Shown: positions 29,755 to 31,920 of the stretch, piece after piece
How the letters are laid out: each line of letters begins with the position of its first letter
Numbering within the stretch: the first letter of the stretch is position 1
Origin: Coleofasciculaceae cyanobacterium RL_1_1
GTDB lineage: Bacteria; Cyanobacteriota; Cyanobacteriia; Cyanobacteriales; Geitlerinemataceae
NCBI GenBank assembly: GCA_012033105.1
Contig: JAAUPN010000016.1
Coordinates: 1 to 33,626 of the forward strand
Length of the DNA stretch: 33,626 bases
Reading direction: 5' to 3'
Made by a program: the position numbers and the translations under genes
The notes under the pieces: generated by a model
Database searches by the model: none
Told to the model about the DNA's origin: nothing
Seen by the model: only the letters and a program-made list of their open reading frames with translations

Positions 29755-30486
29755 CTAAACCACATCGTCCGGTCGGTTGATGCGCTCCCACTGGTTGATC
29801 GCACTGAGAAGACCCGCCGCTCCGAGACCGGTCACACGTTTTTCCAAGTCTTTATAATCAGTGAACCCGCCCGTATCCCGCCGTGCGGCCACCAGACTTT
29901 GAATGACCGCAGACTTGAAGTCATAACAACGCAGTTTTTTCTCCAGTGGTTTACCGTTGAGTGCGTTAATTTCTGCCAGAAGTGACGTGTGTTGGTTCGC
30001 CAACGCTTCACGGTTGGCGCGTTGCAGGTCGGCGACGTAGGCGTTGAGGTCGGTGCGCTGATCGCGGAGCTGGGCGGCAATGGCTTCCAGACGACGATCG
30101 AGATTATCCAGTTGTGACGATTCAGGCGGTAGCGCTTGGGACGGTGAGTTCCCGGACTGTACCGGTGCGCCATAACTGAGCGATCGAGCCAGAGTATCGA
30201 GCTGCACTAACGCACGATCTTTCTCGCGGGGTGCAATCACGATCGCGTTGACCATTTCACCCACCTGTCGATCTTTTTCGTAAGCACGAACCGCAGCATA
30301 GAATTCAAAGTGGCCGTCAATTACGGTGTATTGTTCCAGTCCCGTTTCTTCTAAAATCAACGGCTTGAGCAAACCATCCGCCACTAAAATCTGGTCAGCG
30401 ACGGTATCGAGATCTGCTTCTGGAAAGTGCGATCGGGGAATATTTGACGTAATTAAGACCACATCAACAGTATAAAATCTCGGCAT
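29755..30486 (-). CDS. ParB-like protein lacking a recognisable helix-turn-helix, partner of the nuclease-ParA fusion
   Basis: This 243-residue protein starts with a ParB/sulfiredoxin-like domain (about 8-85: SNIPRSHFPEADLDTVADQI, GLLKPLILEETGLEQYTVID). Where ParB proteins have the arginine-rich CTP-binding motif (GERRxRA), this one has GHFEFYAAVRA, keeping the Gly and the terminal Ala-Val-Arg-Ala but losing the first arginines. Residues about 124-177 are a likely coiled coil (LDNLDRRLEAIAAQLRDQRT ...). The C-terminal part (DFKSAVIQSLVAARRDTGGF; KRVTGLGAAGLLSAINQWER) is helical with a helix-hairpin-like VTGLGAAGL. The central HTH of classical ParB is not evident. It lies 48 nt after the ParA fusion on the same strand, across a cluster of 10-bp repeats. 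Partition, regulation or defence roles are all open. Confidence 0.7.
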   Translation of the reverse strand: MPRFYTVDVVLITSNIPRSHFPEADLDTVADQILVADGLLKPLILEETGLEQYTVIDGHFEFYAAVRAYEKDRQVGEMVNAIVIAPREKDRALVQLDTLARSLSYGAPVQSGNSPSQALPPESSQLDNLDRRLEAIAAQLRDQRTDLNAYVADLQRANREALANQHTSLLAEINALNGKPLEKKLRCYDFKSAVIQSLVAARRDTGGFTDYKDLEKRVTGLGAAGLLSAINQWERINRPDDVV

Positions 30487-30488
30487 TT

Positions 30489-30539
30489 TTGACCTATTAT
30501 TAACCTATGTTTGATTGTTTAATCTATGGTTGACCTATT
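30489..30539. repeat. Four 10-bp direct repeats at the parA-parB junction (operator or parS-like)
   Basis: On the plus strand, TTGACCTATT (30489), TTAACCTATG (30500), TTAATCTATG (30519) and TTGACCTATT (30530) share the consensus TT(G/A)A(C/T)CTAT(T/G). They form two pairs, each spaced 11 bp apart, i.e. one helical turn. The last unit overlaps the ParA stop codon and the first begins 3 nt upstream of the ParB-like start codon. A site for cooperative binding by ParB, ParA or a repressor is inferred. Confidence 0.65.
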
Positions 30540-31920
30540 GAGTTTTCTTAACAACTTCATGAATGAGCGCTTCAAATTCTGATGCCGAACTATTCGCTGA
30601 TACATCCGATTTCGCAAATTCAAAAATAGACTGCGGTGCGGGAATATCACAATCACCGTCCTCTTCCGTGTTGTTCAAACTTTTAGACAGTGCAATCCGT
30701 TCATAGATAATTGAATCCAGTAGGGGCAAATGATGAATATTTGCGATCGCGGCCTTTTGTTTGGGGAAGGTACTTTTTAGAAAACGGGCATTGGTCGCAA
30801 TCTTCGAGGGTAAAACTCCCAATAATTTACAGGGTGCTAAATTCTTATCTTCTCGGTACTCATTGGCCTCTTGCAAAAAGCTGCTGACATTCGACAAGCC
30901 TTGATTAGCAAAGGGTTTGAGGTCGGAGGGAATAATCAAATACTGTGACGAAATCACGCCGACCTGAGCATAAAAATTGCGAGATGGCGGTGTATCGATG
31001 ATGACATAGTCATAGCGATCGGTCACACGACGTAGTTTGCCGAGCAGACGCGATCGGCTCGCAGCAATACTATCGAGTTTATACTGTTTTTCGATGAGGT
31101 TGATATGTGAAGGAATCACATCAATTTCAGGACTGTTAAACCCTTGGGATTGACGCACAACCTGCTCGATCGGGTATTCATCACGGGACGCAAGCATATG
31201 AGAGACATTGCAATCTTTTAGATCATCATCCTCTTCAAATTGAAACTTGACCAGTCCAGCGGCAAAGGTTGAATTCGCCTGCGAATCTAAATCAATTAGC
31301 AATACCCGGTGACCCAGGTTGCGTAGACCAGCGGCAAGGTTGATCGTGACAGTCGTTTTACCGACGCCACCCTTGTTGTGGTAAATCGCGATGATTTTCA
31401 TAGTTTTATCCCTAAGTTGGTTTGACGGTTGGGGATTGATTGCGATCGCGGGGGCAACCGCTGTCGGCTCCTCGGAAAGATGTGGTCGATTGCGTAACGC
31501 CTCGCGCCCAATCGTCGATCGTATCGTAGCGAGCTTGCCTGCAATTTCCCGACCGGTACAGCGAAATATCAGAATGAGATCGCGATCTTGCAAACAATAA
31601 ATCCTAAAATCGCGCCCATTTGTCAGCACGCCATAACGCGCATGGAGCAATGAAAGATACTGCTGCAAGCGCCGCTCAAATCCATCTAAGGATTTGCGTG
31701 GACTCTTGGCTTCAATGGTTAAACTTAACGGCGATTCACCATCAATCACGAACGGCTGATGCTGGATAGCAAATGCCAAAAAATCAAGGCGGATATTGCC
31801 CAGTGCTACTTCCTGATGCCAGTCATTCGGGCCATAGCCCAGTGCGGGTAATAGAAACTGAGCGATCAGTTTGCTTTCGACCTCGCTCTCATTTCGTAGT
31901 TGCTCCGGATCGAAATCCAT
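30535..31920 (-). CDS. HsdR-N/PD-(D/E)XK-type domain fused to a ParA ATPase
   Basis: Residues 1-150 of this 461-residue protein match the N-terminal nuclease fold of type I restriction R proteins (HSDR_N). Acidic Glu37 is in WHQEV, Asp46 in NIRLDFLAF, and the Glu-X-Lys pair Glu70/Lys72 in LTIEAKSP. RRLQQYLSLLHARYGVLTNG and RDFRIYCLQDRDLILIF follow in typical order, so the catalytic residues look intact. After a linker (150-173) a complete ParA domain begins: deviant Walker A KGGVGKT at 183-189, LIDLDSQANSTFA (A'), and YDYVIIDTPPSRN (Walker B). A methionine at residue 174 (position 31401) starts the ParA part exactly and has AGGG 9 nt upstream, so a separate 288-residue ParA may also be made. 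The ParB-like gene follows. Plasmid-type segregation, chromosome positioning or DNA-end surveillance are all possible. Confidence 0.82.
   Translation of the reverse strand: MDFDPEQLRNESEVESKLIAQFLLPALGYGPNDWHQEVALGNIRLDFLAFAIQHQPFVIDGESPLSLTIEAKSPRKSLDGFERRLQQYLSLLHARYGVLTNGRDFRIYCLQDRDLILIFRCTGREIAGKLATIRSTIGREALRNRPHLSEEPTAVAPAIAINPQPSNQLRDKTMKIIAIYHNKGGVGKTTVTINLAAGLRNLGHRVLLIDLDSQANSTFAAGLVKFQFEEDDDLKDCNVSHMLASRDEYPIEQVVRQSQGFNSPEIDVIPSHINLIEKQYKLDSIAASRSRLLGKLRRVTDRYDYVIIDTPPSRNFYAQVGVISSQYLIIPSDLKPFANQGLSNVSSFLQEANEYREDKNLAPCKLLGVLPSKIATNARFLKSTFPKQKAAIANIHHLPLLDSIIYERIALSKSLNNTEEDGDCDIPAPQSIFEFAKSDVSANSSASEFEALIHEVVKKTQ

Follow-up and report, generated by a model that had tools for sequence, protein, structure and literature searches.

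A chromosomal nuclease-ParA fusion and its ParB-like partner form a candidate ParA-based anti-phage restriction machine

Introduction

ParB proteins are defined by reading a centromere, and we know of no partition ATPase that carries a restriction nuclease. We analysed a stretch of 33,626 nucleotides from Coleofasciculaceae cyanobacterium RL_1_1 (assembly GCA_012033105.1, contig JAAUPN010000016.1, positions 1 to 33,626; this whole stretch is called the window), in which a conserved chromosomal gene pair breaks both rules. One gene joins a PD-(D/E)XK nuclease domain to a ParA ATPase, and the other encodes a ParB-like protein for which we found no centromere. We refer to the two genes together as the cassette.

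A 2025 survey of ParB-fold proteins reported DUF3850 fusions as the only ones consistently paired with parA (PMC12704722), and since only these were reported there with parA, the nuclease-ParA/ParB-like pair is not part of that survey. No ParA-nuclease system was found in the literature searched (subscription papers and bioRxiv lay outside the search), and the passages on ParB-type proteins in the BREX and Dnd surveys mention no such system.

Results

The fusion gene (30535..31920, minus strand) encodes 461 amino acids in one open frame. Residues 1-145 (31486..31920, minus strand) form an HSDR_N-like PD-(D/E)XK nuclease domain, followed by a variable linker (residues 146-173; 31402..31485, minus strand) and a ParA ATPase (residues 174-461; 30538..31401, minus strand) with the Walker motif KGGVGKT at residues 183-189. 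AAA_31 matched residues 174-355 (E = 1.8e-50), and Foldseek matched the ParA part to Soj (6.6e-16) and also to McdA. The match of HSDR_N_2 to the N-terminus of the window fusion was weak (0.012, below the cut-off), while the same family passed its curated cut-off in a homologous fusion of subfamily II, L104 (28.4 vs 25 bits, 1.8e-6). In the AlphaFold model the order of helices and strands in the N-terminal domain (H-E-E-E-H-E-E-E) was compatible with a PD-(D/E)XK core, and residues 147-171 of the linker had low confidence. The linker also differed in length between relatives.

All 52 aligned fusions showed the same architecture. Six residues of the nuclease domain were invariant (52/52), namely E11, E15, D46 (31783-31785), E70 (31711-31713), K72 (31705-31707; all three codons on the minus strand) and Y88, and the ParA signature lysine, the Walker lysine and the Asp were likewise kept in 52/52. 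A preliminary description of the window had read a complete PD-(D/E)XK domain (Asp46, Glu70, Lys72) joined to a complete ParA, and the single frame and the invariant residues bear this out. Conservation of the nuclease residues in homologues was also confirmed, with one exception outside the alignment (L033, see Discussion); a dead nuclease was rejected for the family, as the active site is kept in 52/52, and holds for L033. Nor is the fusion an annotation artefact, because the 461-residue frame has no internal stop. Two genes with a stop between them were rejected, as the window and most relatives had a single frame; the fusion gene was split or broken in G319 and G332.

The ratio of nonsynonymous to synonymous substitution rates (dN/dS), measured against the closest relative, L007, was lowest in ParA (0.034) and the nuclease domain (0.07), higher in the ParB-like protein (0.15) and highest in the linker (0.50). 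These ratios indicate that the nuclease domain, ParA and the ParB-like protein are under purifying selection. The ParB-like gene came next after the fusion at essentially every examined genome locus uncut by a contig end, usually with a gap of 0-15 bp. Because the pair recurs at nearly all uncut loci and dN/dS is low, the pairing is not a matter of chance.

The ParB-like gene (29755..30486, minus strand) encodes 243 amino acids and starts 48 bp downstream of the fusion. Its product consists of a ParB/Srx domain (residues 1-104; 30175..30486), a coiled coil that is one long helix in the AlphaFold model (residues 123-165; 29992..30120) and a C-terminal helix-hairpin-helix (HhH)-like domain modelled as five short helices (residues 167-237; 29776..29988), all on the minus strand. 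ParB_N/Srx matched the window protein at 1.7e-4 and was present in 27/27 aligned members, and Foldseek matched the protein to ParB, Noc, SbnI, PadC and sulfiredoxin. At 30304-30315 GHFE replaces the GxxR of the CTP-binding box, within the motif GHFEFYAAVRA at residues 58-68, so that a ParB/Srx partner with a coiled coil and an altered motif, as first described, was recovered. In subfamily I, 26/27 members had Glu (E61) at the position of the GxxR arginine; in subfamily II, Trp or other residues took its place. Loss of this arginine abolished binding in the ParB-fold nucleoside triphosphate binders tested (PMC12704722).

The helix-turn-helix (HTH) domain HTH_ParB matched neither the window protein nor the other 26 aligned members. 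Pfam matches at the C-terminus of the 27 members were HHH_6 in 11, DUF655 in 8 and HHH_3 in 5, the last above its cut-off in L030, and subfamily II carried HhH (L099), Rho_N/SAP-like (L100, L103, L105) or HeH/SAP (L106) modules at the same end. The partner had been called HTH-less; this stood as far as HTH_ParB is concerned, but the C-terminus is occupied by HhH or SAP/Rho_N/HeH modules. The exchange of such modules within subfamily II suggests that sequence-independent DNA-binding modules replace the HTH, and the partner probably grips DNA without reading its sequence, through HhH or SAP/Rho_N/HeH. The ParA-binding N-terminal peptide LG-R/K-GL was not present in the aligned members, which start at the first Srx strand. 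No canonical parS was found in the window at up to 3 mismatches, although a non-canonical or distant centromere could still exist, and no conserved inverted repeat was found upstream of the cassette. Four ATAGRTYAA-like direct repeats lie in or at the edge of the intergenic gap (window 30487-30534); they are not a conserved centromere, because they are missing from L007, where the gap is 8 bp.

The cyanobacterial survey covered a sample of 386 genomes. The nuclease domain occurred in 64 of them, always in one copy; 48 belonged to the subfamily of the window (I) and 16 to the distant subfamily II, the N-terminal domains of the two being ~28-43% identical. The ParB-like protein of subfamily I was found in 53 genomes, directly downstream of the matching ParA. 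The distribution was patchy: the cassette was absent from ~83% of the cyanobacterial genomes, including the 100%-complete genome G002 of the same genus, and for this reason it is not a housekeeping element. Outside cyanobacteria it was carried by the giant sulfur bacteria Thiomargarita, Beggiatoa and Marithrix, and in the class of Thiomargarita by 2/274 genomes, one being the query genome itself.

In closed genomes the cassette lay on a chromosome-sized contig. Neither the nuclease domain nor the ParB-like protein was found among the 72,556 plasmids of PLSDB, and deposited phages held no fusion and showed weak matches to the ParA part only. The earlier view that the pair need not serve plasmid maintenance therefore holds (chromosomal, 0/72,556 plasmids), and plasmid or phage maintenance was rejected as its role. 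The genome of the window has two further ParAB pairs, on contigs C146 and C341 (L046 931-2175, minus strand; L047 581-2331, plus strand), with the canonical ParB motifs GGRRYRA and GERRWRA. A conjugation-type ATPase-like gene lies near the pair on C146. HTH_ParB was absent from 9/18 near-closed cassette-carrying genomes and was mostly on small replicons in the other 9, so the cassette is often the sole chromosomal ParA-ParB pair. That it might be the sole housekeeping parAB was rejected all the same, given its rare and patchy occurrence and the two other pairs in its own genome.

IMG/VR was scanned with three subgroup alignments, and the scans returned seven contigs from five distinct viral lineages (L125; L126/L132; L133; L134/L135; L136/L137). 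The viral genes (L125 5001-5303; L126 4926-5231; L133 6001-6306; L134 6001-6300; L136 4625-4933) encode the ParB/Srx domain alone, in 99-102 amino acids. Their stop codons fall a little short of the position of the coiled coil, and a hairpin (-12.7 to -22.9 kcal/mol) immediately follows each gene. No matching ParA or ParB-like C-terminal part was present on the viral stretches examined. Phage hallmark genes nearby encoded a terminase and portal (L133), a terminase (L136), a minor head protein (L134), ThyX (L132) and a DNA polymerase clamp (L125). The 386 cyanobacterial genomes yielded no stand-alone copy of ~100 amino acids; the frames there had 190-366 amino acids, with two broken or short exceptions.

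The viral copies were scattered over the host clades of the tree, L126 grouping with L097 (100/95) and L136 with L115 (97/94), and one common viral clade was rejected (p-AU 1e-4); single viral placements are rough, because several branches are long. On this tree, truncated Srx-domain copies were acquired by viruses several times. Since the same truncation arose repeatedly, the Srx domain should have a function of its own, and the simplest reading is that the viral Srx-only proteins would act as dominant-negative or decoy proteins against the host system. The equivalent of the conserved Glu61 was lost in 2/5 viral lineages (Thr in L133, His in L136).

An internal translation start was predicted at the ATG of residue 174 (31399-31401), where the ParA part begins, together with an AGGGA-like sequence at ~31408-31413 (31399..31413 in all, minus strand). 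This codon was ATG in 45/46 subfamily I fusions and GTG, also a start codon, in 1/46. Shine-Dalgarno matches of at least 4 bases preceded residue 174 in 27/45 cases vs 32/231 for other internal Met codons, a comparison of related sequences and hence not a formal test; the match in the window itself was 3 bases only. Subfamily II had G, A or S at position 174, and the start was not conserved there. Subfamily I genes are thus predicted to make free ParA from residue 174 as well.

The ParA part also occurred in another fusion. In G051 (L105 3977-7174, minus strand) ParA was joined to a Mokosh-like superfamily 1 (SF1) helicase, of which the C-terminal half is present (AAA_12; MkoA match 1e-33), and the helicase-ParA gene was preceded by a restriction endonuclease-helicase gene. 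The helicase-ParA gene in L105 also has beside it a DUF2779 gene and a cassette of subfamily II that is frameshifted.

The cassette of the window lies in ordinary chromosomal surroundings, as first described, flanked by ruvA (read from sequence, ~1-2 kb away), a CCG/hdrB-like gene and DUF362. Neither HsdM nor HsdS adjoins the cassette in the window, and its ATPase is ParA in place of a superfamily 2 (SF2) translocase. Across the loci ruvA was not a recurrent neighbour. An orphan chromosomal ParA of ~294 amino acids lay within 2 kb of the cassette in ~20/51 genomes that had both. This adjacency spanned several families and both subfamilies, and in G026, G053 and G040 an extra paralogue of the orphan ParA stood at this place. 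G053 had the ParA of the cassette but no adjoining ParB-like gene; the locus is degraded or of another kind.

Where Nostocaceae lack the cassette, the corresponding divergent site beside the orphan ParA is mostly taken up by a three-gene set (L174 4209-9886; also L169-L172, L176, L177). It encodes a protein with 3'-5' exonuclease, PD-(D/E)XK and FtsK parts, an AAA_16/NACHT-like ATPase and a protein without a Pfam match. Against PADLOC, the FtsK-nuclease protein matched SspH (1.9e-65) and mad8 (4.8e-28). The Nostocaceae site looks like a variable, defence-type site, and the three-gene set like a candidate defence system. At other loci the cassette adjoined AAA_21 and DUF4276 (L110) or a NADAR gene (L115). 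Only six Nostoc-type loci had, after the ParB-like gene, a gene of ~255 amino acids with a Z-alpha-like winged-helix start (L017 10328-11107; L018 6673-7428; L021 10133-10900; L029 2039-2704; L031 10173-10928; L034 10121-10888). This gene is possibly an accessory part; a universal third gene was rejected, as this one is confined to those six loci.

Discussion

We lean slightly towards the explanation that the cassette encodes an undescribed chromosomal ParA-based anti-phage restriction machine, a "ParA-coupled nuclease". It is supported by the viral copies, the invariant active site, the defence-type context at some loci and the patchy, single-copy, plasmid-free spread. The preliminary description had offered a defence or addiction module; defence is now the best-supported branch, and addiction finds no support, as the cassette occurs once per genome, is missing from the plasmids and shows no toxin-antitoxin logic.

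In such a machine the ParA half, with ATP, would bind DNA without sequence preference and keep the PD-(D/E)XK domain inactive on it. The ParB-like partner would sense the shape or state of incoming DNA, such as ends, junctions, or phage DNA that is unpackaged or in active replication, and its ParB/Srx domain would trigger ParA, upon which the nuclease domain would cut. Free ParA from the internal start would adjust the nuclease-to-motor ratio, and a truncated viral ParB/Srx protein would, without DNA, associate with ParA or with the partner and so block the signal. A fuller evolutionary account, in which a positioning ATPase came to switch an immune machine that cuts DNA, a centromere-less ParB descendant senses DNA through exchangeable HhH/SAP modules and phages repeatedly stole the Srx domain as a dominant-negative inhibitor, seems to us evenly poised between right and wrong.

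Several observations weigh against this role. G046, G037, G162 and G066, and a second copy in G047, had the same ParA without the nuclease, which in G046 and G037 was followed by the same ParB-like protein. In a Synergistaceae metagenome-assembled genome (L033 7842-9431) the nuclease active site was lost (RLDF to RLAF, E.K to A.T), although the ParA part was still 64% identical. Given these nuclease-less variants and the decayed L033, the nuclease is the usual but not the sole output of the ParA/ParB-like pair, and the gene contents indicate that it is not essential to the role of the pair. No viral counterpart of subfamily II was found. No close relatives of three viral proteins were found among 50,697 deposited phage records, which leaves the hosts of the viral contigs unproven, and the viral genes could serve otherwise, for example by recruiting host ParA. 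Many loci, that of the window included, lie among housekeeping genes; with a defence-type site in some cases and ordinary genes around many loci, the evidence from context is mixed. PADLOC-DB 2.0 had no model for the cassette, the matches being confined to 43 residues of the Walker region (PDC-M28B) and the ParB-like protein being unmatched.

The cassette might instead act in segregation or ploidy control in polyploid bacteria, the pair spacing or compacting chromosome copies and the nuclease trimming or resolving DNA. We think this unlikely. It stays alive because the chromosome often has no ParA-ParB pair besides the cassette, and it would suit an element that often adjoins an orphan chromosomal ParA and whose known hosts are cyanobacteria and giant sulfur bacteria. 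Both groups are noted for polyploidy, a link for which the count in the Thiomargarita class is suggestive only. Yet most cyanobacterial genomes, and close relatives, do without the cassette, neither a canonical parS in the window nor a conserved upstream inverted repeat accompanies it, and the viral Srx-only copies are left unexplained. The last point also tells against a role in DNA repair, recombination or uptake, as repair itself would not predict that phages repeatedly captured the Srx domain alone. In that case HhH/SAP and PD-(D/E)XK would recognise DNA that is branched or damaged and cut it, and ParA would position the complex on the nucleoid, a proposal that draws on the HhH and SAP modules of the ParB-like proteins, which are typical of structure-specific DNA enzymes, and on ruvA close by in the window. 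With ruvA not a recurrent neighbour and the distribution patchy, we hold this to be quite unlikely.

The main alternative to a viral decoy is that the Srx-only proteins recruit or redirect host ParA for positioning of the phage genome, the host system itself then being a positioning system. The Srx domain would retain a ParA/ParB-type contact, and phages have ParA genes of their own. The viral proteins, however, have no recognisable DNA-binding or dimerising part and so could not tether phage DNA alone, and the Glu61 equivalent is gone from two of the five lineages; we regard this alternative as very doubtful. Most improbable is a maintenance or addiction module of a plasmid, integrative and conjugative element or prophage. 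Such a module would account for the homology to ParA/ParB, the patchy spread and the occurrence in giant sulfur bacteria, distant from cyanobacteria, but it is contradicted by the empty plasmid search, the weak ParA-part matches that are all deposited phages show, and the chromosome-sized contigs that carry the cassette in closed genomes.

If the defence explanation is true, the cassette adds a new NTPase class to bacterial immunity and provides five candidate phage inhibitors, and the self/non-self cue of a centromere-less ParAB machine becomes testable. If segregation is the true role, the cassette is a candidate answer to how copies are handled in cyanobacterial chromosomes without canonical ParB.

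The constituent domains all belong to known families, and their combination as a system matches no described kind in the sources compared. The pair had been proposed as an undescribed two-gene system, and this is upheld. It shares with ParABS (Soj/Spo0J, ParA/ParB) a ParA with a deviant Walker motif and a ParB/Srx-fold partner directly downstream, and differs in the nuclease on ParA, the missing HTH, the lack of a detected parS, GxxE for GxxR and the HhH/SAP-type C-terminus. HsdR of type I restriction has a probably homologous PD-(D/E)XK domain N-terminal on an ATPase protein; in the cassette ParA replaces the SF2 helicase, and HsdM and HsdS do not adjoin it in the window. Mokosh (MkoA/MkoC) is linked to the family by the helicase-ParA fusion of G051, whereas the cassette of the window has no helicase and Mokosh, to our knowledge, has no ParA/ParB pair. 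GmrSD, DndB, DpdB and other defence proteins share the ParB/Srx fold, but no description pairs any of them with a nuclease-ParA fusion. Finally, McdAB and other ParA/MinD cargo-positioning pairs likewise combine a ParA-type ATPase with a dedicated adaptor gene, while, as far as we know, McdA lacks a nuclease and McdB does not have the ParB/Srx fold.

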